A DNA stretch of 64,000 bases. Source: Sphingobium sp. MI1205 (GTDB lineage Bacteria > Pseudomonadota > Alphaproteobacteria > Sphingomonadales > Sphingomonadaceae). Below the pieces are notes generated by a model that saw only the letters and a program-made list of their open reading frames with translations, made no database searches and was not told the DNA's origin. The stretch covers positions 2,547,501-2,611,500 of the forward strand of contig NZ_CP005188.1 of assembly GCF_001563285.1 (NCBI RefSeq). The letters run 5' to 3'. Within the stretch, counting starts at the first letter, position 1. Each line of letters opens with the position of its first letter. The position numbers and the translations under genes are program-made. Shown in pieces: positions 18,840 through 31,701 of this stretch.

Positions 18840-19268
18840 TCATCCCTTGTCCGGATCGGGCAAGGGAGAATTAGGGAGCGCGCCCGGCCGGGCGGCGCGG
18901 CGGATCAGGGTTTCGGCCCAGAGGATGGAACCAGCGCGGCGGGCCTGTTCCGCCCAGAGGGAGAGCGGCAAATTGCTTTCGAAGCCAAGGTCGCGCTCGA
19001 TGGAGAGGCCGTAGGGAAGCCGGACAGCGGTGATTTCGCACAAGCTGAAATAACCGAGTTCAGGACAACCGAAGCCAAGATCGGCCAGCCCGAACAGAGC
19101 ATCGCCATCCTCCGCCAGTTCGGTCGCCAGCCATGTCGCGGCTCCAAGCGGATTGAACAGCTTGATGACGGGCGGCGGGTCGAAGCGCTCGCCCTTTGCT
19201 TCATGAGCGCGGCGGGCGATGTCGTTGGCGCGGAGCGCAAAGCGCAGTTCGGGAGTGAGAAGCTTCAT
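18840..19268 (-). CDS. DUF2958 family protein
   Basis: A 142-residue DUF2958 protein. The conserved PPVIKLFNPLGAATWLATEL and LADLGFGCPELGYFSLCEI are clear. The family has no proven function and is found beside ardC and parB-like genes. Its ATG overlaps the stop of the ardC C-terminal fragment (ATGA), so it was originally translated by coupling to ardC. That gene is now broken, but a new start at 19528 may keep the coupling. Confidence 0.88.
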   Translation of the reverse strand: MKLLTPELRFALRANDIARRAHEAKGERFDPPPVIKLFNPLGAATWLATELAEDGDALFGLADLGFGCPELGYFSLCEITAVRLPYGLSIERDLGFESNLPLSLWAEQARRAGSILWAETLIRRAARPGALPNSPLPDPDKG

Positions 19269-19528
19269 GCCGCCAACCTCCCCTCTTCCCGCGCCGCCTG
19301 CGCCTCGCCGTGACGGGCGAGCAGCCAGTCCGCCGCCTTGCTGGCTGCGCTGGCCGCGCGAAAGATCGCGCGGTTATCTTCGCGCAGCACCTCCAGCCAC
19401 GCGCCGATATAGTCAGCATGGCGGACCGTGGGCACTATGCCGAGCGCCGCGCAGAGGAAGGCAGACCCCATCTCGGCGACATATCCTGACAGTCCAGCGA
19501 AAAATGGCGGTTGAAAGGTGAAAACCAT
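19265..19528 (-). pseudogene. ardC C-terminal fragment fused to a start supplied by the inserted element
   Basis: Bases 19265-19480 encode the last ~71 residues of an ArdC-type protein (VAEMGSAFLCAALGIVPTV, then HADYIGAWLEVLREDNRAIF). At 19480 the homology stops at the end of the ~6.9-kb inserted element. From inside the element, an ATG at 19528 with an AGGAGG site five bases before it reads 16 foreign codons (MVFTFQPPFFAGLSGY) and then enters the ardC frame. The 87-residue product lacks the HExxH metalloprotease motif and so cannot be a full ArdC. It ends in an ATGA overlap with DUF2958. The missing parts are at 26375-26461 and 31024-31701. Confidence 0.85.
19475..19494. repeat. Left end of GInt-like element: core and terminal inverted repeat
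   Basis: GGCGAC core at 19475-19480, one spacer base, then TATCCTGACAGTC at 19482-19494. The partner repeat is at 26361-26380. Left of the core, ardC coding sequence continues without a break. Confidence 0.82.
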
Positions 19529-19540
19529 CGGTGCCTCCTG

Positions 19541-19854
19541 CACTGCCTAAAAACCCCATGGCTCCCCCGAGGCGGGGGTGGGCGGCGAGAACGACCGGAG
19601 AGGCCCGCGCAAGCGGGGGGCCGCACCCGGAGGGGCGAAATGCAATGGAGCAGCGCGGCGAAGCCGGGCTTGCGGCGCGCCGTGGCGGGCCTAGCAGGGA
19701 GCGCCGACCAGACCCGCATCGAGGGAGGCCCAGAAATCAGCGCCGCCGCGCCAGCGGCGTCCGCTGGTGAGCGGGCGAAGCCCGCGCATCGCCGTGCGCG
19801 ACGAAGCGGCCGAGCCCGCGAGGGATCGGCCGCTCGGCTTTGGTCGCTGCTGGA
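19541..19854. repeat. GC-rich leader, homologous to 31702-31960
   Basis: This 314-base gene-free stretch shares long interrupted blocks with the segment upstream of the broken ardC at 31702-31960: CTAAAAA, AGGCGGGGGTGGGCGGC, GAGAGGCCC/AAGAGGCCC, CGGGCCTAGC and GGGAGCGCC in the same order and spacing. Both copies lie just upstream of an ardC-related start on the minus strand. A shared promoter or structured leader is likely; its function is unknown. Confidence 0.7.
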
Positions 19855-20718
19855 TCATGGCTGACGGGCGTGCATCCAGTCGGCCGCTGCCTGCGCCTTG
19901 CTCGCCGCGGTGAAGATCGCGCGGGGCTCGTCCTTGAGCAGTTGCAGCCAGGAGGCGATATAGGCCGCGTGATCGGGTCGCGGTTCGTGCGCGATCCCAA
20001 GATCGGCGAGCAGGAACGATGCGGTCAGTTCGGCGGTCGCTTCCTCCATGGCGAGCGCGTGCCTGGTCCACTTGGCGCTGAAATCCCGGTCGAGCCGGTG
20101 AGCTGCGCCACTGGCATGAGCCGCCTCGTGAATATGGGTGGCGTAGAAGCCGTGGGCATCGTGGAAGGCGCTGAAATCCGGCATGTGGATGCGGTCTTCG
20201 GCGATGTGATAATAGGCGCTGGCCGAGCCGTAGACGGTATCGATGCCGAGGGCGGCGATGAAGGCTTCGGCGGCGGCGAGGCGTTCGCTCTCGGGCAGGT
20301 CCGGCCCCGGTTCGGGCGCATAGCCATCGACCTGATCGGCGTTGAACAGGCTGAACGCCTTGGCGAAAAGCCGGCGGTGGTCGTCATCGTCGCCGGCGTC
20401 GTCATCCTTCGCGCGAAACTCCTTCCAGAGGACGCCGAGGCTGGCCTGCTCGCCCTTGCGGACCTGCGCGCCGAGCGTCTGCCACTGGCGATAGGTGCCC
20501 CAGACGCCGCTCGCATAGCCGCTGCCATAGGCGGCTGCCCAGAGCGAGACCGTATTTATGCCGCGATAGGGCTTGCCGCTGGCGACGTTCGTCGGGCGGG
20601 TGACGTCGGCGCCAGAATGATGCCATGGCATGCGCCAGGTGCCGGTGCCGGCTTCGATGGCGTCGACGATCGCTTGCGTGACGCGAGCATAGACGTCGAC
20701 ACGTGGTGAGGCTGACAT
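19855..20718 (-). CDS. ardC: ArdC-type antirestriction protein / zincin metallopeptidase, intact
   Basis: A 287-residue ArdC (DUF1738/DUF6782) protein that in conjugative systems protects incoming DNA from restriction. The N-terminal ssDNA-binding domain is RVDVYARVTQAIVDAIEAG and PWHHSGADVTRPTN, with YRGINTVSLW. The C-terminal zincin domain has HEAAH at 197-201, then GAAHRLDRDF and the EATAELTASFLLADLGI segment. It starts at MSASPRVDVYA; an upstream extension is basic and lacks similarity. It is cargo of the GInt-like element that broke the ICE's own ardC. Confidence 0.9.
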   Translation of the reverse strand: MSASPRVDVYARVTQAIVDAIEAGTGTWRMPWHHSGADVTRPTNVASGKPYRGINTVSLWAAAYGSGYASGVWGTYRQWQTLGAQVRKGEQASLGVLWKEFRAKDDDAGDDDDHRRLFAKAFSLFNADQVDGYAPEPGPDLPESERLAAAEAFIAALGIDTVYGSASAYYHIAEDRIHMPDFSAFHDAHGFYATHIHEAAHASGAAHRLDRDFSAKWTRHALAMEEATAELTASFLLADLGIAHEPRPDHAAYIASWLQLLKDEPRAIFTAASKAQAAADWMHARQP

Positions 20719-20887
20719 GATCTGTTCTCCGTTCTCGCGCCGGGGACCATCCCCGGCGGCGGAGGCCCGTTCGCGCCGGGCACAGGGGGGCTCGCGCACC
20801 CGTCAGGGCCGCAGCGAAGCGAAGGACGGCGAAGCCGTTGCGCGGGCGCGCCGACCGGCGCAGGACTCCGCCAACAGCCGGGGTGGT

Positions 20888-23050
20888 CTACGGCGTGGGA
20901 GGATCGATCCCGGCAATCACCGCGGTCAGGCGATCAAGCTCGCGCTGGAGAGCCTGACGCTGAAGATCGGAGATGCGCCGTTCGCGTAGATGCGCCCTGG
21001 CATCGGCCGCCGCGCGTTCCCAGGCCGGCCTGTGGCGGGCGGTGATGCAGGCGTTGGGACAGCGGGTCGGCTCGCACAGGGCGGTGAGCGGCTGCGCGGG
21101 ATCAGGGGTCGTCACGCGCTTGAGGCAGAGCGCGGTCGCGGGATCAAAGAAGCAATCCGCGAGCGGGCCGACATGGAAGGTGCGCGCGACGCTGGCGAGC
21201 ATGACGCGCAGGCGGGCGCGATCGGCGATCATGGCGGGCAAAGGCCCTTGTCTGACGGCGGCATCGTCGAGCGTCCGCGCGATGCGCGGTCCCGCTGGGC
21301 CGCCGAGCGATGCGCCGCCCTGACGGCGGTCGAAATAGTCCAGCAGATCGTCAATCTGACCGAGCCGGCGCTGCGCTTCGACCTCGGCGCGAAACCCCGA
21401 TGCGCTGGTCCCGGCATAGCCCTCGAAAGCGGCGACCGAGGCGTGCTTGTACTGGATCATGCCGGCGATGGTGCCGAACGGGCGGTTGGCGATGTGCCAC
21501 GCGATCGTGCGCCGGAACTGCCGTGTCGTGATGCGCCACGGCTTGCCGTCGGGACCGCGCGGGATGACCGGCATATCGGGGTTGCCGAAGGCGGTGTTGA
21601 GGTGGTCGCGGAAGGCGTTGAGCTGGCGGACCACCTCGCTCGACAGATGCGTCTTGGAGACGGCGCTCGCGCGCAGTACCGGCCAGAGCGTATCGCTGCC
21701 GCTGGCGCGCGCCGGTCCTGCCGACAGGCGTTCGAGCACCGTGATCGCATCGGCGACCGGCTCGATCGTCACCCAGCTCGCCACTTCGTCCACCGCCGCC
21801 CGGCGCTTGTAGATGGTCGATCGGATGCGATGCCGTTCGATCAGGCCGTCCTCGCTGCGCGCGATAGAGACACACCCGCGCCGCATCGCCTGCACCTCGC
21901 AGTCGCGCATGCCGGTCAGATAGGCGCACACGATATAAGCGGCGGCCTGGAGCATCCGTTCCTCGTGTGCGAGAGTCTTCGCGTCGAAGCGCTCGCGCCA
22001 TGGCCGACCGCTATCGGGATCGATCGAGATCGGCGTGTCCATGCCGCCGACCTCCACCCCCAGCTCGGCCGCCACTGCATCGATCAGCCTCGCTTCGCCG
22101 CCGGTCAGCATGAGATGTGCGTGCGGTTCCGCCTGCACGTCGATCCCGACATGGAGATGTAAGAGATGGGCGTTGATCGGTGGGGTCACGCTGCCGGTGT
22201 TGGGGTCGACGCGCAGCTTGCCGTTATGAGCGGTGGCCCAGATCGGTGCGCCGCGCCCCTCGCGGCGTCGGCGATCGAAATAGGCCTTCAGGCGGGTGCG
22301 GCGACGTTGCCGGCGATCAGGGTCCGAGAGGCCGGCGTCGGCGGTGACAAGGCGATCCCGGCGCGCTTCGAGCCGATCAAGCTCGCGGCGGGCGGCGAGA
22401 ATATCGTCAGCGAAGACGGTGACGTAGCGCAACGACCAGGCGAGCAGCGCGGCGATGACCTCTTCCGGGAACCGTGGGGTGCGGTTCTCCCGGACATGGC
22501 GGTAGCCCGCAACGCGGGCGGGCGCCTGTCCGGCCCAGGGCTCGAATACAAGGCCTCCGTCAGCGAGGTGGTCACGATAGTAATAGAGATCGGAGACCAC
22601 TTCGAGGAGGTGACCGACGATGACGGGTCGTCGGGCAGGATCGTCACGGAGATGACGGGCATAGGCATCGACCAATGGCTGATCGATACGGGAAACGTCG
22701 AGCCGTCCGAGCCGCTCACGGGCGAAGGCGAAGAACCGGCGGGCACGGTTGAATGCCTGGCGGATGCAGGCGGGCGGTAACTTCGTCCGATAGCCGGGGA
22801 GATCGGCGTTGAGGCGGGCGTAGAGATAGGCGCGCATCGCCGCCTGGACATCGGCATGTTCGAGCACGTCGAAATGCACGGTGACGTGGCAGCGCCGGGC
22901 GTTCTCGCGGAATACGGCGGGACCGAGATCCCAGCTCGCGTCGCCGACGCGCGACAGATCTTCGCGGGCGTGACCGGCCTTGAGCGGCGCGCTCGCCAGC
23001 ACGGCGCGATCGTCGAAGGCGGGCGCCTGGACATGGGCTGGCATGGTCAT
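20888..23050 (-). CDS. Large tyrosine recombinase (GinC-like)
   Basis: A 720-residue site-specific recombinase, the last of three overlapping recombinase genes. Catalytic residues are seen in YLTGMRDCEVQAM (Arg I), TRQFRRTIAWHI (Arg II region), IQYKHASVAAFEGYAG (His and Tyr). A Cys/His-containing C-terminal segment, ALCEPTRCPNACITARHRPAW, resembles a zinc motif also present in the preceding recombinase (CLDCPNAVITARKLPA). It starts at ATG 23050, overlapping the previous stop. The set of three acts together in GInt-type elements. No small fourth gene follows; 169 bases later comes ardC. Confidence 0.88.
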   Translation of the reverse strand: MTMPAHVQAPAFDDRAVLASAPLKAGHAREDLSRVGDASWDLGPAVFRENARRCHVTVHFDVLEHADVQAAMRAYLYARLNADLPGYRTKLPPACIRQAFNRARRFFAFARERLGRLDVSRIDQPLVDAYARHLRDDPARRPVIVGHLLEVVSDLYYYRDHLADGGLVFEPWAGQAPARVAGYRHVRENRTPRFPEEVIAALLAWSLRYVTVFADDILAARRELDRLEARRDRLVTADAGLSDPDRRQRRRTRLKAYFDRRRREGRGAPIWATAHNGKLRVDPNTGSVTPPINAHLLHLHVGIDVQAEPHAHLMLTGGEARLIDAVAAELGVEVGGMDTPISIDPDSGRPWRERFDAKTLAHEERMLQAAAYIVCAYLTGMRDCEVQAMRRGCVSIARSEDGLIERHRIRSTIYKRRAAVDEVASWVTIEPVADAITVLERLSAGPARASGSDTLWPVLRASAVSKTHLSSEVVRQLNAFRDHLNTAFGNPDMPVIPRGPDGKPWRITTRQFRRTIAWHIANRPFGTIAGMIQYKHASVAAFEGYAGTSASGFRAEVEAQRRLGQIDDLLDYFDRRQGGASLGGPAGPRIARTLDDAAVRQGPLPAMIADRARLRVMLASVARTFHVGPLADCFFDPATALCLKRVTTPDPAQPLTALCEPTRCPNACITARHRPAWERAAADARAHLRERRISDLQRQALQRELDRLTAVIAGIDPPTP

Positions 23051-24834
23051 GTGCGTGCCTCCGGCGGCAGATAAAGCCGTTCGCCTTCCATCTGCCGGCG
23101 CGCATCGGCGATGACGGCATCGGAGAATGCCGGCAGGACCTGGGCGGTGATGCGGGCATGGACGCGGCCGAACTTGGCCGCCCAATCGTTCGCGGGCAGG
23201 CTCAGCCTCTGCTCTTCGACGAATGCGAGGAAAGCGAGGATCGCGGGGAGCTTGCGCGCGGTGATGACGGCGTTGGGACAATCGAGGCAACCCCAGAAGG
23301 GCTGCGCGCAGGGTGATCCGGCATCGGCGAAGGGACTGCTATGGAAGCCCGCGCAGGCGGCGAGCCAGACATCCTGTTCGCCGTCGAGCAACGGACCGAC
23401 GGTATCGGGCGGCATCAGCGGCGCGGCCTGATCGGGCGATTGGCGCAACGCCTTCTCGGCGGTGGGCGGCAGCACGGTCGGCGTCGCGGTGGCGACCGCT
23501 TCGCGAAAGGCGTCAGCGAGGGTCTTCTCGTGCAGGGACCGAAGCGACGGCAGATCGGCATAGTGGCGCCCCGCAACCTCGCGCGAATGACCGACTGCGA
23601 AGCGGGCCATGTGCCCCTCAGTCTTCGTGTACCACAGCGCCTTGTGGGTCTTGCGGAGCCGGGAGAGCAGCAGGTGGAGCGGCTTGCCGTCGTCATCGAC
23701 AATAGCATGCTGTGCTATCCAGGCAGCGATCCGCTCCTTCGGATGAGCGATACCCGCCCGCAGGCCGCCAACGTTGTGATAAACCCAAAGACGATCATCG
23801 GTCAGATGCTCGCGGGCTGGCGCGGTGACGTCGATCAGGCGACGGATGAGGCCGCCAGGCGTGCCACCACCGCCGTCGCGGACGCGCATGCTCTTGTGCT
23901 CGGCGCCGCGGGCGCGGCGCTTGAGATAGCGCAGTTCCACCGTGCCGGCATGGGGGTTGGTGAGACAATCCACGGTCAGCGCCTTCAGGCACTCGGGCTC
24001 GAGCCCGGTATCGAGCGTGAGCAGCACGAGCAGCGCCGGCAGATCGCGCGCAAGCAGGTGATGGCGGCCATGCAGATCGTCGATGAGCGTGCTGATCGGC
24101 AATCCGCGTCGCATGCGCATGAAATAGAGGCTCTTCAGCGCGGGCTGGTCTGCGACGATAAAGCCCTGCCGCGCGATGATCGCTTCGACCTCGGCGCGCA
24201 CGCTGGCGATGACCGGGTCGCCCTCATCGGTGCGGTCGTCGGCACCGAGACGGCGGAACATCGCTTCGACGTCGGTCCTCGCGGCGTCGCGCAACGCGCG
24301 GGCAACGAAGGGGCTATAAGCATCGCGCGGGGTCGAGCGGCCCGCCGACGTGGCCAGTGTGTAGCGCAGCCGCTCATGCAGGTCAGGCGCGATCCGATCG
24401 GGCCGGTCTGCCTCGATCGCGCGCAATGTGTTGACGATCTTGCCGACCGTTATGTGCCGGTGGATCGCGCCCATCCCGCGGCGGTCGAGCGCGGAGGCGA
24501 ACCCATCGATATGGGCTGCGCGCAGGTCGCCGACGCCAGCCACGTTCAGCGCTTCGTCGCCAAGCCAGGCGAAGAACAGGCGGTAGGCATTTACATACTG
24601 CTTGATGACGCTCGCCGCACCGATCGGTCCTCCGAGCGCGGCCGACCGTCGCAATGCGCCAGCAAAGGCGATGGCGAGCGGACGAGGATCGAGTGCGGCC
24701 ATATCGATCAGGACCGTCCCGCCATGCCGCGCCTCGATGGTGAACTTGAGGCCGAGCACGGGATCAGGCTGCACGGGCTCCGGCGTGATCGGCACGAAGG
24801 CGACGGGCCGGCCCTTGCGGGGACGACCGCTCAT
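23047..24834 (-). CDS. Large tyrosine recombinase (GinB-like), atypical active site
   Basis: A 595-residue recombinase-fold protein. The expected first catalytic Arg (TGxR) appears as DTGLEPECLKAL, with Glu. The second motif is LSRLRKTHKALWY and the third VGHSREVAGRHYAD. Either it uses different residues or it plays a structural part in a heteromeric complex. A Cys motif near the C-terminus (PFWGCLDCPNAVITARKLPA) matches that of the next protein. ATG 24834 begins MSGRPRKGRPVAF and overlaps the upstream stop by 4 bases. A 526-codon plus-strand frame here is antisense noise. Confidence 0.85.
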   Translation of the reverse strand: MSGRPRKGRPVAFVPITPEPVQPDPVLGLKFTIEARHGGTVLIDMAALDPRPLAIAFAGALRRSAALGGPIGAASVIKQYVNAYRLFFAWLGDEALNVAGVGDLRAAHIDGFASALDRRGMGAIHRHITVGKIVNTLRAIEADRPDRIAPDLHERLRYTLATSAGRSTPRDAYSPFVARALRDAARTDVEAMFRRLGADDRTDEGDPVIASVRAEVEAIIARQGFIVADQPALKSLYFMRMRRGLPISTLIDDLHGRHHLLARDLPALLVLLTLDTGLEPECLKALTVDCLTNPHAGTVELRYLKRRARGAEHKSMRVRDGGGGTPGGLIRRLIDVTAPAREHLTDDRLWVYHNVGGLRAGIAHPKERIAAWIAQHAIVDDDGKPLHLLLSRLRKTHKALWYTKTEGHMARFAVGHSREVAGRHYADLPSLRSLHEKTLADAFREAVATATPTVLPPTAEKALRQSPDQAAPLMPPDTVGPLLDGEQDVWLAACAGFHSSPFADAGSPCAQPFWGCLDCPNAVITARKLPAILAFLAFVEEQRLSLPANDWAAKFGRVHARITAQVLPAFSDAVIADARRQMEGERLYLPPEART

Positions 24835-26180
24835 GCGCCCTGCGGTCCCGGCAGCAGCGCAAGCAGCTCCTCGACCGCCGCATCCACCGTATCGGCGCGG
24901 GTCGCAATATGGTCGAGGTAGATATAGGTGGTGGTGAGGCTCGCGTGGCCGAGCAGGCGTTGCACCTGTTGCAGCGGGTCCCCGAGGATCAGCCGGTAGC
25001 TCTCCATCGGCCCCGCCGGCAATGCCGCTTCGCGCAGTCGCTGCTGGATCAGCAAGGCAAGCATATGGACTGCGAACGTGTGGCGAAGCTGGTGCGGGTT
25101 GATCGACAGCGGGAAGCCGTTCTCCGCGCACCGGTTGCCAGCACGGGTGAAGATCACCTCCCACGAGTTGGGCCGAACAGGCTGCCCGACCTCGGTCAGC
25201 CACAGCGCCGCCGGCTCGCGGGGCGGTCCATCCTCGTCGCAGAGGATCAGGCGGCATCGTTCCTCCGGGGTGCAGATATCGCGCATGCGGTCGAGACCGG
25301 CGCGGGTGACAGGGATCGGTCGTTCGAGCTTGGTCGCGCCGTCTCGCGCGGCGAACTTGGCGACGCCCGCGGCGCGCTCGACGGCGACGTAGGCGGCAAT
25401 CTGACGAAGCAGCCGACGCGGGAGCAGGACGCTGCGTCCCCGGTCGCCCTTGGTCAGCGGTGGCGGGAGAGGCAGCCAAAGTTGTTGTGCATCGCTGTCC
25501 TCGCGGTCGATCGCCGCGAGCTCGGCGGCGAGTAGACCCGACGCCTCTTCGAGGCGCAGGCCGGTGGTGACGAGAAGATCGGCGAACAGCGCGTTGCGCA
25601 GCCCGTTCCGGTCGCGCGCGCCGGGGCGCTCGGTGCCGTCAGGGGTAAGGCCGCGCAGGCCGACCTCGCGGAAAATGCGGTAGTCGTCCATCGTGACGAA
25701 CCGCACATCCGATCGCCTGGCAACACGTTCATAAGCGTCATTGCGCGCCGCGATCATGCCGCGACGGCCACCATGCGCCGGTCGCCACACGGCGCGGCGG
25801 CTGAACGGCGCGTCAGTGATCAGCCCGTGCTGCTCACCCCATCGGTAAAGGCGATCGAGACTGGCGACGGCACGGTTCCAGCTTGCGGCCGTTATCCGGT
25901 GATCGGCCTCGTCGCGGCGTCGCTCACGATGATAGGCGTCGACATCGTCGCGGGTCGCAGCCCACACGGTCTTGCCGCAGGCATCGAGAAAGCGAAGCCA
26001 GACTACGACATCATAGGCATAGGCGCGCAGCGAATGGCGCGAGCGGACGCCCGACAACGGCAGGTCGAGAAAGAAGCGATCCAGATCGGGATCATAGAGC
26101 GCGTCGCCGCGCAGGATCAGCGGCACATGCGCATCGAGGCCCCTGGCCTCGCGGCGCTCGCAAACAGTAATGATCGACAC
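24831..26180 (-). CDS. Tyrosine recombinase (GinA-like)
   Basis: A 449-residue tyrosine recombinase, the first gene of the trio. Catalytic motifs are TTGLRLEEASGL (Arg I), INPHQLRHTFAVHML (His-x-x-Arg), LLGHASLTTTYIYLDH (His and Tyr). The GTG at 26180 was chosen because GGGGGAGGG lies 10 bases upstream; a longer frame to 26255 has no support. Transcription would run from the right end of the element through ginB- and ginC-like genes to ardC. Confidence 0.88.
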   Translation of the reverse strand: MSIITVCERREARGLDAHVPLILRGDALYDPDLDRFFLDLPLSGVRSRHSLRAYAYDVVVWLRFLDACGKTVWAATRDDVDAYHRERRRDEADHRITAASWNRAVASLDRLYRWGEQHGLITDAPFSRRAVWRPAHGGRRGMIAARNDAYERVARRSDVRFVTMDDYRIFREVGLRGLTPDGTERPGARDRNGLRNALFADLLVTTGLRLEEASGLLAAELAAIDREDSDAQQLWLPLPPPLTKGDRGRSVLLPRRLLRQIAAYVAVERAAGVAKFAARDGATKLERPIPVTRAGLDRMRDICTPEERCRLILCDEDGPPREPAALWLTEVGQPVRPNSWEVIFTRAGNRCAENGFPLSINPHQLRHTFAVHMLALLIQQRLREAALPAGPMESYRLILGDPLQQVQRLLGHASLTTTYIYLDHIATRADTVDAAVEELLALLPGPQGA

Positions 26181-26360
26181 CGGCGCGAAGCCCTCCCCCG
26201 GACCCCCACCCGGAAGCTGACCTTCACACCGTTGCGCACTATGGCCTGGCAGCAATCAGGCTGGCCTCCGCCAGCTCTTGGGTCAGCGCTACGGCCAGCC
26301 TGATTACTGCCTACCGTGGGCGTCCATCGCCGACCTTACTGCAAAGTTGCGAGCGGCGCA
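26181..26360. promoter_or_regulatory. Upstream region of recombinase trio with long inverted repeat
   Basis: 180 bases between the first recombinase and the right end of the element. A perfect 13-bp inverted repeat (AATCAGGCTGGCC at 26254-26266, GGCCAGCCTGATT at 26293-26305) with a 26-base loop lies here. It may be an accessory recombinase-binding site or an operator for the trio. Confidence 0.5.
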
Positions 26361-26380
26361 GACTGTCCAGATAAGGCGAC
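26361..26380. repeat. Right end of GInt-like element: terminal inverted repeat and core
   Basis: GACTGTCCAGATA at 26361-26373 is the inverted partner of the left repeat. One spacer base and GGCGAC at 26375-26380 follow. Beyond the core the ardC middle fragment begins. Confidence 0.82.
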
Positions 26381-26461
26381 CAGTTCCTCGCGAGCATAGT
26401 CCTTGCTGCCGAAGGCGTTGAGGAGATTACGGTTCAGCCGCTTCGCATGCCCCGTCGCATG
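26375..26461 (-). pseudogene. ardC middle fragment between the two inserted elements
   Basis: 29 codons that read HATGHAKRLNRN, then LLNAFGSKDYAREELVA on the minus strand. This is exactly the stretch that follows the HELTH metal motif in ArdC proteins. It is bounded on the right (5') by the RIT element and on the left (3') by the GInt-like element. Joining it to 31701-31024 and 19480-19265, with the duplicated His and Val-Ala counted once, gives one open frame of about 323 residues, a normal ArdC length. Confidence 0.88.
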
Positions 26462-26464
26462 AAC

Positions 26465-26486
26465 CTTATGCCGATATCGGCATAAG
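26465..26486. repeat. 22-bp perfect palindrome at left end of RIT element
   Basis: The half-site CTTATGCCGAT is followed directly by its reverse complement ATCGGCATAAG. It shares ATGCCG with the terminal repeats and has no counterpart at the right end. It may be a recombinase-binding or asymmetric end site. Confidence 0.85.
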
Positions 26487-26522
26487 ACCCATAATGCCGT
26501 AACCCTGATTATGCCGCATGGC
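26487..26522. repeat. RIT left terminal inverted repeat
   Basis: 36 bases beginning ACCCATAATGCCGTAACCC, matching the reverse complement of 30994-31029 at 35 of 36 positions. Weaker similarity continues inward (TAGGA-CT-GTTT) and a third CGGCATAAT-like copy is at about 26565-26573. Confidence 0.9.
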
Positions 26523-26573
26523 GTTGGCTAGGACTTGTTTTTCGGCCATCCGCCATGCGGCACCTCGGCATAA

Positions 26574-27566
26574 TCAGAGCCCTTCGAGGAACGCGAGGAG
26601 CTGATCGTCGGGTTTGAACCGACCTGTCGGCACGTCCGGAGCAGCGACGCGCGCCAGTGCCTTTTCCTTTAAGCGCATGTCGGCGTGGATGTAGACCTGC
26701 GTGGTCTCGACCGATTCATGACCCAGCCACAGTGCGATCACGGCCTGATCGACACCATGGTGGAGCAAGTCCATCGCGGTGCTGTGGCGCAAGGTATGCG
26801 GCGTGACCCGCTTTGCGCCGATGCTCGGACAGGTGCGCGCTGCCGCCAGGCAATGCTTGCGTACCAAATGTTCGAGCGCATCGCGGCTTAGCCGTTCGCC
26901 ACGGATCGACGGGAACAGTGGTCGATCGCTGTTGCCATGCTCCCCAATCCATACCTTCAGGATCTTGGCGGTTTCCCGCCTGATCGGTGTGGACCGTTCT
27001 TTTCGTCCCTTTCCTACGCATCGGACGTGGGCGCCGGTGCCGAGCACAACATCCCGGTATCGCAAGCTGATCAGCTCTGATGCCCTGAGGCCCGTTTGCA
27101 GCGCGAGCAGCAACAAGGCGTGATCGCGCTTTCCGGCCCATGTCGAGCGATCCGGCACGGCCAGCAGTGCCGCGATTTCGTCTGCGGTCAGGAACGTGAC
27201 CGCGCGCTTAACATAGCGTTTGTTAGGCATGGCAAGGATGCGCTGGCAGTTCAGCATCCATGTTGGATCGGCCATCGCCACATAGCGGAAGAACGAACGG
27301 ATCGCCGCGAGCCTGGTGTTACGGCTACGTGCACAGTTGCCCCGTGCTGTTTCGGTGTGGACCAGAAAGTCGGCAACCAGATCGACGTCGATATCTTCGA
27401 CCGTGATAGCGACTGGTCGTTTGCCAAGGCGCGAACCGGCATAGCGCAGCAACAGGCGGAACGTGTCGCGATAGCTCGCGATGGTATGATGGCTTGCTTC
27501 CATCTGGACGCACAGTCTGTCGGTGAAGAAGCGTTGGATCAGCGCTGGCAAAGTCATGGAGGTCAT
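26574..27566 (-). CDS. RIT tyrosine recombinase, third gene
   Basis: A 330-residue XerC/D-like recombinase. An N-terminal SAM-like core-binding region (SHHTIASYRDTFRLLLRY) precedes the catalytic domain with LQTGLRASELISL (Arg I), VTPHTLRHSTAMDLL (His-x-x-Arg), IALWLGHESVETTQVYIH (His and Tyr). ATG 27566 overlaps the previous stop (ATGA). In RIT elements the three recombinases are always in this tandem order and probably act together. Confidence 0.92.
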   Translation of the reverse strand: MTSMTLPALIQRFFTDRLCVQMEASHHTIASYRDTFRLLLRYAGSRLGKRPVAITVEDIDVDLVADFLVHTETARGNCARSRNTRLAAIRSFFRYVAMADPTWMLNCQRILAMPNKRYVKRAVTFLTADEIAALLAVPDRSTWAGKRDHALLLLALQTGLRASELISLRYRDVVLGTGAHVRCVGKGRKERSTPIRRETAKILKVWIGEHGNSDRPLFPSIRGERLSRDALEHLVRKHCLAAARTCPSIGAKRVTPHTLRHSTAMDLLHHGVDQAVIALWLGHESVETTQVYIHADMRLKEKALARVAAPDVPTGRFKPDDQLLAFLEGL

Positions 27567-28504
27567 CGCTGCGCCTCCCAACCAATGCGCGTGGCGCGTG
27601 CCATCGCCAGCTCGAGCAGTTCGGGCACCGCCTCAATGTACCAGAACGTATGGTCGGGGCTGGCATGGCCAAGCCAGGTCGTCAGCCTGATCATCTCCCG
27701 CGCCGGATCCTTGCCCATACGATACCAGTCGATCATGGTGCGAACTGCGAAGGTGTGGCGAAGGTCGTGTATGCGTGGTCCTTTGCCGTGCCGCTTGAAC
27801 CGTGAGTATTCCCGCAACCCGATCGCTCGACTTACTCGTGCGAAGCTGGCTCGTGCCGACCATTCGCTGAGCCGGTCCCCATTACATCTGACAAAGAGGG
27901 GGGTGGATGCTCGACCAAGCAGCCGATTACGTTCTGTGGTGTAGGTGATCAACCGGTCTACGACAGTCGGGTCGAGTGGCAGCAGGCGCTCCTTTCCCAG
28001 CTTTCCGTGCCTGACACTCAGCACACCGGTTGCAACATCGAGGTCGCTCGTGTCGAGCGCCAGCGCTTCGCTGATCCTGAGCCCCGTTACCGCGATGAGG
28101 CCGAAGAATGTCGAACACGTCAGCCCCCGCATTCCGTAGGTGGAAGGCAGTTCGCTGGCGGCTGCGATAATGTCACCGATTTCGACTTTGCTGTAGATGT
28201 ATGGCCGTTTGCGGATTGTGCGATCCGGCAACAACCCGCGCGGCGGCGCTTCATGCGCCAAGTCGACACTGCTCAACCAAAGAGCGAACAACCGTACCAT
28301 ACCGAGCCGAGCGGACCGGGTGGACGACCCGGCAGCAGGCTGACTTGCGTCCCAGCGCAGGAACAGGTCAGCGTCGATATGCTGCGCACCCGCATCGTCG
28401 GCAAAGCGGATAAAGCGGCGTAGCACCCGTTCGGAAGTCCTGAGATCATAGCCGAGGCTACGGCGAACGGCGAGATAGCGGTCAAGCTGGCTGGCGAGGC
28501 TCAT
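27563..28504 (-). CDS. RIT tyrosine recombinase, second gene
   Basis: A 313-residue recombinase starting MSLASQLDRYLAVRRSLGYDL. Catalytic motifs are VTGLRISEALAL (Arg I), RIHDLRHTFAVRTM (His-x-x-Arg), WLGHASPDHTFWYIEA (His and Tyr). Its start overlaps the first gene by 4 bases and its end the third by 4 bases, so all three are made from one transcript. Confidence 0.92.
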   Translation of the reverse strand: MSLASQLDRYLAVRRSLGYDLRTSERVLRRFIRFADDAGAQHIDADLFLRWDASQPAAGSSTRSARLGMVRLFALWLSSVDLAHEAPPRGLLPDRTIRKRPYIYSKVEIGDIIAAASELPSTYGMRGLTCSTFFGLIAVTGLRISEALALDTSDLDVATGVLSVRHGKLGKERLLPLDPTVVDRLITYTTERNRLLGRASTPLFVRCNGDRLSEWSARASFARVSRAIGLREYSRFKRHGKGPRIHDLRHTFAVRTMIDWYRMGKDPAREMIRLTTWLGHASPDHTFWYIEAVPELLELAMARATRIGWEAQR

Positions 28505-29718
28505 TGTGCACCTCCCGCGACGGGCCAGGGCTGGGCAATGGATCGCAAGCCTTCGATCTCAAGCCGGGCGTAGATCATGGTGGAACCGCGCGACCGGTGG
28601 CGCAGCATGTCGCCGACCTCGTCGAGTGAAGCGCCACGATTTATGAGTTGCGTGGCAAGGCTGTGGCGTAGAACATGCGATCCCACATAGGGCGTAGCGG
28701 GCTTCTGACCGGTCGCATCGAGCGCATCCTTGATGATAGCGTTGACGATCTGGCTATCCTTGAATGGTCGATGCGGAGCGCGCTGGGTGACGAACAGGGT
28801 CCGGCAGTCAGTCGGTCCGCGCTCCTCCCTCAGATACCGGCTTAGGGCTTCACCGACCTCGGCGGTGATGGGCACACGGTCATGCACTTTGCCTTTGCCG
28901 CGCACAGTCAGTTCGCCTGAACGCCAGTCGATATCGTCGAGTTCGATCCTGGTGATTTCCGGCGCGCGAAGCCCAAGCCGTGCCATGATCAGGAGCATCG
29001 CATAATCGCGAACGCCGTGCCGGGGATTTCGGCGAACCCAGTCAAGCACGGCTTCGACGCCTTCGGGCGACAGATGTCGGGGAAGGCGCTTGTCGCGAGC
29101 CATCGCTGCTTTGGGCACGCTTAGGGCAAGGTTGGTCGCGGTGACGCCTCGTGCGAACAGGTACTGGAAGAACGTGCGCAGATGCGTCACTGCACTCTTG
29201 TCTCGGTATGGCCGCCCCCGCGACAGCAAGTGTTGAACGAACCCGACGGCGTCAACGGGTCGTAAACTGGTCAGGTCGAACATGTCCGCACCAAAGCGGT
29301 GGTCCATGAAGCGGTTGGCAAAGCGGAGCGTATGGTGGATGCTGCGCGGACTGAGGCCGCGCTGTTTGGTGAGATAGGTTTCGAAGTCGGCCAGCAGTTC
29401 GGCGCGGGCGACCTCAGCGGGAGTCGGTGCAACCGGCTTGGCAACGCATATCTCGATCAGGTGCGCAGCGAATTTGCGCCCCAGGCTGTAAAGGCGGATC
29501 GTTCCTGTTCTCTGCGGCTCTGCTGCCCGACCCAGCTTTTCCGCAAGATCGGGCGTCAATGCCGATGGTGCAATGCCAGCCTCATCCATTGCCAGTCCAA
29601 ATCTGCGGATCAGATTTCGGTATTCTTTGATCGTGGCGTGTTTGTAGTTCGCCTCGGCAAAGCAGCGCATGAAGCTGTCGATGTACGGCTCAATGCAGGT
29701 TTTGGTGATTATCGTCAT
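28501..29718 (-). CDS. RIT tyrosine recombinase, first gene
   Basis: A 405-residue recombinase. Residues ~1-110 are an N-terminal region (YKHATIKEYRNLIRRFGLAM), then a core-binding domain (RGLSPRSIHHTLRFANRFM), and the catalytic domain with MARLGLRAPEITRI (Arg I), GSHVLRHSLATQLI (His-x-x-Arg), MLRHRSRGSTMIYAR (His and Tyr). ATG 29718 (MTIITKTC) fits the start; a longer frame to 29898 runs into the divergent cargo gene. The 99-base gap to that gene must hold both promoters. Confidence 0.92.
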   Translation of the reverse strand: MTIITKTCIEPYIDSFMRCFAEANYKHATIKEYRNLIRRFGLAMDEAGIAPSALTPDLAEKLGRAAEPQRTGTIRLYSLGRKFAAHLIEICVAKPVAPTPAEVARAELLADFETYLTKQRGLSPRSIHHTLRFANRFMDHRFGADMFDLTSLRPVDAVGFVQHLLSRGRPYRDKSAVTHLRTFFQYLFARGVTATNLALSVPKAAMARDKRLPRHLSPEGVEAVLDWVRRNPRHGVRDYAMLLIMARLGLRAPEITRIELDDIDWRSGELTVRGKGKVHDRVPITAEVGEALSRYLREERGPTDCRTLFVTQRAPHRPFKDSQIVNAIIKDALDATGQKPATPYVGSHVLRHSLATQLINRGASLDEVGDMLRHRSRGSTMIYARLEIEGLRSIAQPWPVAGGAQ

Positions 29719-29817
29719 GGTTTTCGTGCTCCATAGGGTTGGAGCGCGATCCGGGCCTTGTCGTCGCCCTGACTGCAAGATTATCAGTTGTGTTGGTTTC
29801 AGATATGCGGAGTGGGC

Positions 29818-30462
29818 ATGAAGCAGAAGACCAAGGTTTTGGGTGATGCAGCCGTAAAGGCGTTGATCGAGAAGTACGACTGCCCGGTGCCATTCCACGA
29901 AGTGCGCACCCGGCTTCTGGGCAATATCGCAACCCCGGAGCTATCGGCCTCGCCCTTGCAGATGATTCAGGATTTATGGGGCGGTGAGTTGCCCGTGTTC
30001 GACAGCGTGGACGAAGCCAACGAATTGATTGGTGCTCTGATCGACGGCCTTTGGAATGGGCTGACCCGGCACCAGAAGCGTAGTCAGCCATTCAGGCTGA
30101 CACGTGTGTCGATGGACCCAACTGCTGCAAATCTCGGACACTACGGGCTGATCCGTCTTGAGGAACTGGATGGCTTCATCGAAGGTCTGTTCAACGGTCA
30201 TGATATCATCGATCTACCCGAACGTGCTCATGGCGCGATCGGCCAACTTGCCGAGCTCCGTGCGATGATGGGCGGTATCTGCGAACTCGTGGAACGTGAC
30301 CCCAATGCGGATGATCGCACCCAGCTTGACACGACATTCAAGCACCTGCGCGAACTGACCAAAATCATGGAGACCGAAATCCACGAGACTGTGCTGGCTT
30401 GCACTCGTGCACGGCGACAGATGCTTGAAGGCATTCTCACCGAGAAGCCGACGGTGCATTGA
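29818..30462 (+). CDS. RIT cargo protein of unknown function, first gene
   Basis: A 214-residue, mostly helical protein starting MKQKTKVLGDAAVKALIEKY. No domain is recognised. It has neither signal peptide nor membrane helix and ends with a long helix (TFKHLRELTKIMETEIHETV). It is divergent from the recombinases and lies inside the inverted repeats, so it moves with the element. The next gene follows after 4 bases, so the two form an operon. Confidence 0.72.
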   Translation: MKQKTKVLGDAAVKALIEKYDCPVPFHEVRTRLLGNIATPELSASPLQMIQDLWGGELPVFDSVDEANELIGALIDGLWNGLTRHQKRSQPFRLTRVSMDPTAANLGHYGLIRLEELDGFIEGLFNGHDIIDLPERAHGAIGQLAELRAMMGGICELVERDPNADDRTQLDTTFKHLRELTKIMETEIHETVLACTRARRQMLEGILTEKPTVH

Positions 30463-30466
30463 TCCA

Positions 30467-30901
30467 ATGTCCGAGGAACGTCTCCGCGAGAAGCTGCGCA
30501 AGATCGAAGCTCTCTATGCCGGCGCCACGACCGCCGGCGAGCAAGCCGCCGCAGGTGCCGCTGCGGAACGCATTCGCCGCCAGTTCGCAACGGCCAGCAA
30601 ACAAGAACGTGCCGAGGAGTTCAAGTTTTCAATTTCTGACCCCTGGTCACGACAGCTCTTCATCGCTCTGTGCCGCCGCTATGGCATCAAGCCATTTCGC
30701 TATGCGCGCATGCATCGTCAGACGGTGATTGTTCGCGCGCCAGCGAGTTTCGTTCGGATGACGCTATGGCCAGAGTTCGAGGAACTGAGCCAAGCCCTGA
30801 CCTCGCATCTGGATGAAATCACGCAGAAGATCATCAGAGAAGAAGTGCACGAAGCCACGCAGGATGCGGAAGAAGTGAGCGAACCGCGTCAGTTGCGCTG
30901 A
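30467..30901 (+). CDS. RIT cargo protein of unknown function, second gene
   Basis: A 144-residue protein starting MSEERLREKLRKIEALYAG. The N-terminal helix pair (LREKLRKIEALYAGATTAGE, then AAAERIRRQF) recalls the DUF2786-like helical repeat seen in some phage and mobile-element proteins. The middle (SDPWSRQLFIALCRRYGI) and the acidic C-terminus (EEVHEATQDAEEVSEP) match nothing known to me. It ends 93 bases before the right inverted repeat. Confidence 0.7.
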   Translation: MSEERLREKLRKIEALYAGATTAGEQAAAGAAAERIRRQFATASKQERAEEFKFSISDPWSRQLFIALCRRYGIKPFRYARMHRQTVIVRAPASFVRMTLWPEFEELSQALTSHLDEITQKIIREEVHEATQDAEEVSEPRQLR

Positions 30902-30993
30902 ACGTTCCCACATTCCAGCGGATTACCTCCCAGGCACCAGGAATATGCCGAAGCGGCACGTCACCAAATCGCGGAAACACGAGATCCTACGAT

Positions 30994-31029
30994 GCCATGC
31001 GGCATAATCCGGGTTACGGCATTATGGGT
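30994..31029. repeat. RIT right terminal inverted repeat
   Basis: 36 bases beginning GCCATGCGGCATAATCC and ending ATTATGGGT, partner of 26487-26522. The last six bases (ATGGGT) are also the ardC codons for Thr-His, so the element joins the target at or within them. Confidence 0.9.
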
Positions 31030-31701
31030 GAGTTCATGGAGGCAGGTCCTGTAATAGTTGACCTGATCGAAGAAGGCGGGCTGCGGCGGCACAGCCACAA
31101 AATCCTGCCCGGGCGCATAGAAGGCCTCACTGCCGCCGATGCGAAACTCGACGCCCGACGCGGCGATCACCTCCTCGGCTATGGGCACGAACTCGCGCTG
31201 GGGAAGCGGTTCGGGATCGGCGGCCAACCCCTCGCGCAGTCCCTCGCACTGCGCGACATTGAAGACCGTGAAACGCTTCAGGAACGGTACTGCTTTGGGA
31301 TCGCCACCCTCTCGAGACGCCCTCTCCCTCTCCGCTTCCGGCGTGAAGCGATCGGCATAGACGACGGTCACGCCGCGCTCGCCCTTCCTCACACAGCCGC
31401 CCGCCTCCAGCGCCTGACGGAAGGTGAGCCACGATTGCGAGGGCCAGCCATGTTCGACGACCGCCCCCCAAAGAAGGAGCACATTGACGCCGGAATAGGT
31501 GCGAGCGGAGAGCGCATTGCGCGGCAGGCCGGGACACGCTCCGCCATGTTCGCCCCATGGCTGGACCCACGGCAGACGCCCGGCCTCCAGTTCGGTGATG
31601 ATCTTAGCGGTTACTTCGTCGTAGAGGCTCGTCCGGCTTTCCTCCTGACGATCTTCGCAAGCACCCTTTCCACGGGCACGACGGCTACAGGGTTCACGCA
31701 T
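31024..31701 (-). pseudogene. ardC N-terminal fragment, cut in the HELTH motif by the RIT element
   Basis: 226 codons from MREPCSRRARGKGACED through the ArdC N-domain (SLYDEVTAKIITELEAGRLP, YSGVNVLLLWGAVVEHGW, QALEAGGCVRKGERG) to the start of the zincin motif YYRTCLHELTH. There the frame enters the RIT end and stops 20 codons later at 30961. The ATG has GGAGA upstream. The rest of the gene is at 26461-26375 and 19480-19265. This was the ICE's own ardC and would have been coupled to DUF2958. Confidence 0.9.

Follow-up and report, generated by a model that had tools for sequence, protein, structure and literature searches.

The window analysed here is a 64,000-nucleotide stretch of Sphingobium sp. 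MI1205 (contig NZ_CP005188.1; G000:C1:2547501-2611500 in our numbering, where G, C and L denote genomes, contigs and loci) within a 4.6-Mb genome. It contains a gene of the anti-restriction protein ArdC that is interrupted by two unrelated recombinase-trio elements, one a recombinase-in-trio (RIT) element and the other resembling the GInts of Pseudomonas. Comparison of their junctions with those of relatives elsewhere makes it very probable, in our judgement, that each of the two families uses the DNA of one ArdC metal-binding motif as its 6-bp crossover site, and codon-level targeting of ardC by both elements is well supported by the same junctions. For the RIT this site would be the final codon pair of the HExxH motif (NNN-CAY); for the GInt-like element it would be the final pair of ExxA (usually NNN-GCC following GARGARYT). 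The motifs being about 25 codons apart, an ardC gene could take either element or both, which would then lie about 90 bp from one another. By targeting ardC, the elements could move among unrelated plasmids and integrated elements whose only common gene is ardC. At each insertion the 6 bp on the 5′ side of ardC belong to the host, and we read those on the 3′ side as coming from an earlier ardC.

A single ardC gene interrupted at two motifs

The RIT and the GInt-like element split ardC into three collinear minus-strand pieces (Table 1), as the first-pass annotation had read them. Each piece was aligned separately against uninterrupted ardC genes, with which all are collinear. In addition, the 5′, middle and 3′ pieces are 83, 86 and 88% identical to the ardC of a second interrupted copy in the same genome and 34, 54 and 37% identical to that of a third; the pieces therefore belong to one gene. 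One locus, L201, is among the top three matches of both the 5′ and the 3′ pieces. The ArdcN and MPTase-PolyVal domains with HExxH and EExxA are found in the broken host gene, in pieces, as well as in an intact copy borne by the GInt-like element; the 5′ piece covers positions 3–56 of the MPTase-PolyVal profile (PF18818). In a search with the 5′ piece, 74 of 298 family genomes contained relatives, and 26 of 30 loci from this search run uninterrupted through both sites (23 by a narrower motif), the other four being the window itself, L203 and L215 (both in GInt-bearing genomes) and L209. A looser motif scores 28 of 29 ardC genes as ‘intact’ but does not test the second site.

The two elements are separated by 90 bp with the 6-bp cores included, a figure that replaces the earlier range of 85–110 bp. 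The RIT does not split HELTH, as had been supposed, but lies directly after its last His codon (cores ACCCAT at 31024-31029 and GTTCAT at 26459-26464). In the ArdC of R388, HExxH contributes the metal ligands H201 and H205, and E229 comes from the following motif helix, (E,H)xx(A,F,T,S,G) (PMC7213743), and it is the spacing of the HExxH and ExxA motifs in ArdC that appears to set the spacing of the elements.

RIT elements in ardC lie at the HExxH codons

The RIT element has a consecutive tyrosine-recombinase trio, ritA, ritB and ritC, overlapping by 4 bp each and all matching PF00589, together with terminal inverted repeats and a palindrome at one end. There are several indications of its target. 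First, a tblastn search with RitA gave 81 plasmid records at E 1e-60, and in all 11 of the loci taken from these across the identity range (RitA about 45–70%) the insertion is in ardC at HExxH. Genomes were also scanned with a RitC alignment, the best 80 of at least 586 relatives being kept. Second, with the junction placed by protein alignment alone, 40 of 43 5′ sides end ...NNNCAT|[A/T]ATGC, and the other three (L001, L123 and L128) are element-borne or distant ardC rather than junctions. The cores are read in the order host CAYGAR-NNN-NNNCAT, repeat, body, repeat, ATGNNN, palindrome and NNNCAY, after which ardC resumes, giving a junction motif in DNA of CAYGAR-NNN-NNNCAY. Third, an off-target RIT (L181) lies in a reading frame without an ArdC match that contains CATGAGACGATCCAT, and a second (L130) is similar. 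These keep the RIT motif outside ardC, which argues that the DNA motif, rather than ardC as such, is probably what is recognised.

A tree of RitC (98 rows, 86 of them different and some near-copies; 331 columns) has all 44 ardC-labelled rows in one clade of 64 rows (support 100/99), the rest of which comprises 13 rows without readable flanks and seven located elsewhere; in assigning the label, L128 was removed and L001, L114 and L123 were added by eye. Outside the clade, 17 rows lie in tyrosine-recombinase genes and nine in IS66 transposase (labelled by hand from translated flanks). The IS66-located RITs are a single group (100/85) that includes Cupriavidus rows, and the core of the recombinase-located RITs falls on Arg-His codons; we take the LRH|T at this core to be the box II Arg-His motif. 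Pfam searches with pieces of nine of the 26 non-ardC target loci bore out the label in eight (L186 falling slightly below the curated cut-off), and the piece from L190 had no Pfam match; a tenth scanned piece, from L141, is an rve transposase. At L157, L158, L160, L162, L171, L182, L187 and L190 the RITs stand beside recombinase pieces that match RitB, with the core at Arg-His, such that RITs are nested in RITs or in other integrases.

Orientation of the RIT body

Orientations and cores were compared in 33 distinct insertions with all three cores present, setting aside L075 and L083 (duplicates), L163 (ambiguous) and loci with unreadable cores. The rit genes are on the same strand as ardC in 17 and on the opposite strand in 16, and the palindrome is on the 3′ side of ardC in all of them. 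The middle core is the reverse complement of the host core in ten (2.9 expected; shuffle p 0.0005) and the left core equals the right core in 11 (3.1 expected; p 0.00025); the middle core equals the right core in four (2.4 expected), which is not significant. Because the middle core matches the host core above chance, we suspect that the RIT body inverts in place, and the data suggest that recombination between the left and middle cores flips it. Two points qualify these counts. The shuffle values, and the Fisher values given below, overstate independence since the rows are related, and the pattern used to find the cores has CAY and ATG/ACG built in, so that the core counts hold partly by construction and exceptions to them cannot be listed.

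A possible if somewhat less likely explanation of the two orientations is that circles insert independently, either way round, with no inversion in place. The RITs of L101 (S. baderi) and L120 (S. wenxiniae), at which the left sides of ardC are nearly the same, have identical RitC proteins, opposite orientations and different right cores, as independent insertion would give. Nonetheless, the palindrome is always on the ardC 3′ side where it could be read and the match of middle and host cores exceeds chance, and we favour inversion of the body. At three loci (L119, L139 and L163), ardC 5′ pieces stand inverted on both sides of the RIT, a layout that recombination between two ardC genes, each with a RIT, could have produced by inverting a large segment.

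GInt-like elements in ardC lie at the ExxA codons

We counted 32 GInt-like insertions with a readable left arm, taking copies of one insertion once and keeping L006 and L199 separate though they are at the same site. In 29 of them the insertion is in ardC at EE[LI]xA, always on the ardC strand, and some of these may share one event (L002 and L004 are in the same gene). The junction DNA is GARGAR-(C/T/A)TN-NNNGC, and the site in the window is EELVA|E. Within the ardC-inserted set GinB identity extends down to about 51% (L090); two relatives at 35% (L091 and L092) had no ardC within the stretch examined. An off-target insertion, that of L198, is at GAAGAACTGCGGGCC, without an ArdC match and with the same DNA motif. 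The cores of two Tardibacter plasmids are reciprocal, with CGGGCC on the left and GTCGCC on the right in pHSL3 and GTCGCC on the left and CGGGCC on the right in pHSL4, which would follow if the right core records a former site.

Several observations count against the targeting of ardC motifs by these elements. Among the resolved rows of the RIT clade, seven of 51 lie outside recognisable ardC, and the GInts at L006 and L199 are in another gene with a junction that lacks the motif. The RIT and GInt target windows rank 68th and 28th of 274 for ardC DNA conservation (26 sequences), which goes against the simple idea that conservation of ardC DNA is highest at the targets. Finally, neither a circle nor inversion nor transposition was observed.

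Independence of the two insertions

The MI1205 genome contains three copies of the GInt-like element (100% identical over 6894 bp) and three of the RIT (about 100%), present as RIT and GInt pairs in three different ardC genes (in the window, on C1 near 3.277 Mb and on C4 near 0.16 Mb) at the same codons. The RIT of the second copy is inverted relative to ardC and the GInt, and the middle 28 codons, 54–86% identical between the three copies, follow each host ardC; both points favour separate insertions (or insertion plus inversion) over a composite unit. Either element also occurs alone in ardC, a check proposed in the first-pass annotation: the distinct insertions examined comprise 33 RITs without a GInt arm, 20 GInts without a RIT repeat and nine loci with both. 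The GInt site is visibly uninterrupted in 26 of the 33 RIT-only loci (24 by motif, L108 and L142 by eye), L163 having Ns at this position and L119, L126, L127, L135, L139 and L155 not showing the site, and HExxH is uninterrupted in all 20 GInt-only loci. Double insertions reach as far as Mesorhizobium carmichaelinearum (L122) and a Hyphomicrobiales metagenome-assembled genome (L123).

The recurrence of both junctions in many unrelated ardC genes excludes chance coincidence and bears out the early suspicion of a recurrent site. It had been suggested that ardC is hit because it enters new cells early; such a cause is not needed, the junction DNA indicating two sequence-level targets. A second suggestion, that one element's end generates or attracts the other's site, is consistent with the 90-bp separation and with the co-occurrence of the elements, but is very unlikely and in effect ruled out by the solo insertions, in which each element occupies its own codon, with the other site visibly uninterrupted in the 26 and 20 loci above. 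We also see little prospect that ardC is a passive hot spot, its loss neutral and assorted insertions accumulating without sequence targeting; other breaks in ardC, described below, would suit this, but the junctions are exact to the base in dozens of genes, some sharing as little as about 34% protein identity, and off-target insertions keep the same DNA motif. Least probable is that the RIT and the GInt move as one composite transposon carrying the piece between them, for despite the pair being common to three copies in one genome and to two Tardibacter plasmids, and four of five RIT genomes also containing a GInt, which 15 of 397 genomes do (p 6.5e-6, uncorrected for kinship), it is ruled out by a middle piece that tracks its host at 54–86% while the elements are about 100% identical, and is further opposed by differing RIT orientations, by the elements found alone, and by a Tardibacter RIT only about 73% identical over the aligned part where its GInt is 93% identical.

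The RIT genomes in the co-occurrence test came from a palindrome search permitting one mismatch (seven of 397), with G075 and G169 dropped because they have no RIT in the 16 kb examined; perhaps the two elements keep company through shared carriers. The MI1205 genome also has an ardC on a separate 88-kb contig (G000:C5:5266-5883; L098) that is uninterrupted and contains HEAVH and DELVAE, an unused target. Finally, ardC is split near residue 121–124, in the N-terminal domain, at L005 (10269-12098), L078, L095, L116 and L196 (2162-4063); in L005 and L196 the gap contains an annotated group II intron-like reverse transcriptase, so that ardC hosts yet another kind of element.

An ardC gene carried by the GInt-like element

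Three genes of the element are laid out like ginA-ginB-ginC of the GInt operon, to which they may correspond; an integrase Pfam match is present in the first gene only. It has a 6-nt crossover and imperfect flanking repeats (e.g. cores GTCGCC/TGCGCC). No ginD was found, judging by position and with no GinD profile searched; the gap between ginC and ardC is about 180 bp, and ardC is in fourth place. The first-pass description of two unrelated recombinase trios stands, and the second of them is GInt-like only. A class-wide search with GinA matched the MI1205 genome alone (one of 385).

GInts with their own ardC make up 25 of the 27 that are inserted in ardC and have a readable right part, and none of the five located elsewhere (p 1e-4, the rows being related), two of which lack a defined site. 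There are no internal stops in 30 full-length element-borne copies, and dN/dS (the ratio of nonsynonymous to synonymous substitution rates) is 0.09–0.32 relative to the window's copy in ten comparisons. The EExxAE codons of the element-borne ArdC are mostly unlike the target (EEATAE, EEICAE and EECCVE). We infer that the GInt-borne ArdC, mostly without the usual target codons, stands in for the broken one, and would guess that the altered codons give it self-protection. Not everything accords with this: the GInt at L193 carries no ardC and that at L008 only part of one, and the element-borne ArdC of L194 has EELTAE, so alteration of the target codons is not universal. Moreover, the R388 protease-site mutant E229A is transferred to P. 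putida like the wild type (PMC7213743), so that breaking this domain may do little harm, weakening the case for compensation. Both cuts leave the single-stranded DNA-binding domain open.

Relation to known elements

Trios of rit genes have been noted in radC and IS66 tnpA of C. metallidurans CMGI-2 and likewise in B. petrii (PMC2864759), and RIT ends are described as an inverted repeat with an overlapping palindrome (PMC3414803). The RITs here share with those known the three overlapping recombinase genes, the terminal inverted repeats, the palindrome and insertion in the genes of other mobile elements, and differ in having a base-exact target (the xH codons of HExxH), an ardC-specific clade and a body that lies both ways against a fixed palindrome. 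In the available text of these reports, RIT target specificity is listed as not tested (PMC10214605) and RIT mobility is called undemonstrated (PMC3414803). The Pseudomonas GInts (PMC5385486) have a three-recombinase operon, which the present trio resembles in layout, and likewise a 6-nt crossover, imperfect flanking repeats and site-specific insertion within a gene; here no ginD was found, the fourth gene is ardC and ardC is the target. According to the available text of PMC10214605, ginC-ginD pairs are absent from Alphaproteobacteria. The same source describes strand-biased circularizing elements, which are likewise flanked by a 6-bp core of the host and, at the opposite end, by 6 bp from the former site; their tfp/srap homologues are reported from Gammaproteobacteria only, and we liken them to the present elements by description. 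Our literature search, which did not cover Ricker 2013 and Nielsen 2017, found no description of ardC as a RIT or GInt target.

Two recombinase families thus seem to converge on functional motifs of a single anti-restriction protein whose gene is common on conjugative DNA, and by targeting its motifs they could spread among unrelated plasmids and integrated elements. Homing elements such as inteins and homing endonucleases also target the codons of conserved motifs, where functional constraint on the DNA widens the range of targets; the elements described here differ in being inserted whole by recombinase trios, which disrupts the gene. The insertions explain the fragments annotated as ‘ArdC-like’ or ‘zincin-like’ beside integrase trios in the plasmids examined, and the base-exact RIT target, the clade-wide rule and the suspected flip offer a direct experimental handle. 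A broader proposal, for and against which the weight seems to us about equal, is that RITs as a class home to motif DNA in the genes of other mobile elements (HExxH for the ardC clade, and for others the box II Arg-His codons, including those of ritB-like genes, or IS66 transposase) with an invertible, palindrome-anchored body, and that a ginD-less, ardC-bearing trio has converged on ExxA and pays with a spare, mostly target-altered ArdC.

Feature coordinates and genomic setting

Table 1. Positions in the window of the interrupted ardC gene and of the two elements within it.
Feature	Position	Strand	Evidence and remarks
ardC 5′ piece: single-stranded DNA-binding domain up to HELTH	31024..31701	-	ArdcN PF08401 and start of PF18818; collinear with intact ardC
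HExxH codons CATGAACTCACCCAT	31024..31038	-	Last 6 bp (31024-31029, ACCCAT) are the RIT left core
RIT element (body, terminal inverted repeats, palindrome)	26465..31023	-	Two more near-identical genome copies; ends from junction comparison
RIT cargo gene 2, 143 aa, function unassigned	30470..30901	+	No NCBIfam match (only NCBIfam tried); with gene 1 in L108, L113, L115, L126
RIT cargo gene 1, 214 aa, function unassigned	29818..30462	+	No Pfam match; homologues 72-100% in L108, L113, L115, L126
ritA, 405 aa	28501..29718	-	Phage_integrase PF00589 (longer open reading frame scanned)
ritB, 313 aa	27563..28504	-	PF00589
ritC, 330 aa	26574..27566	-	PF00589 (slightly longer open reading frame scanned); alignment; tree
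RIT middle core ATGGGT (reverse complement of ACCCAT)	26487..26492	-	Core reading
RIT palindrome CTTATGCCGATATCGGCATAA, ardC 3′ side	26466..26486	-	Junction comparison
RIT right core GTTCAT (NNNCAY)	26459..26464	-	Core reading
ardC middle piece, 28 codons (ATGHAKRLNRNLLNAFGSKDYAREELVA)	26375..26458 (piece about 26461-26375)	-	Tracks host gene, not elements
GInt-like left core GTCGCC (V-A codons after EEL)	26375..26380	-	Junction comparison
GInt-like element, 6894 bp	19481..26374	-	Three identical genome copies; 93-95% copies in ardC without RIT (plasmid loci L002, L004, L005)
ginA-like recombinase, 449 aa	24831..26180	-	PF00589, PF02899 (longer open reading frame scanned)
ginB-like, 595 aa	23047..24834	-	No Pfam match (longer open reading frame); matches in 15/397 family genomes
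ginC-like, 720 aa	20888..23050	-	No Pfam match (longer open reading frame); relatives annotated integrase
Element-borne intact ArdC (HEAAH, EEATAE)	19855..20709	-	PF08401 and PF18818, full length
GInt-like right core GTCGCC	19475..19480	-	Junction comparison
ardC 3′ piece (EMGSAFLCAALG...), right GInt core included	19265..19480	-	PF18818 profile 81-125

The two RIT cargo genes (29818-30901) lie at the ritA end of the element on the strand opposite to the rit genes, and occur as a pair in the other loci listed with them. The neighbourhood of the interrupted gene includes a transfer region of the TraG/TrbE/TrbL/TrbI type, a DUF3363 protein, a ParB-like protein and LuxR-type regulators. Thirty surrounding open reading frames were scanned with Pfam, among which no drug-resistance gene was recognised; one encodes a major facilitator superfamily transporter, to which no role is assigned.

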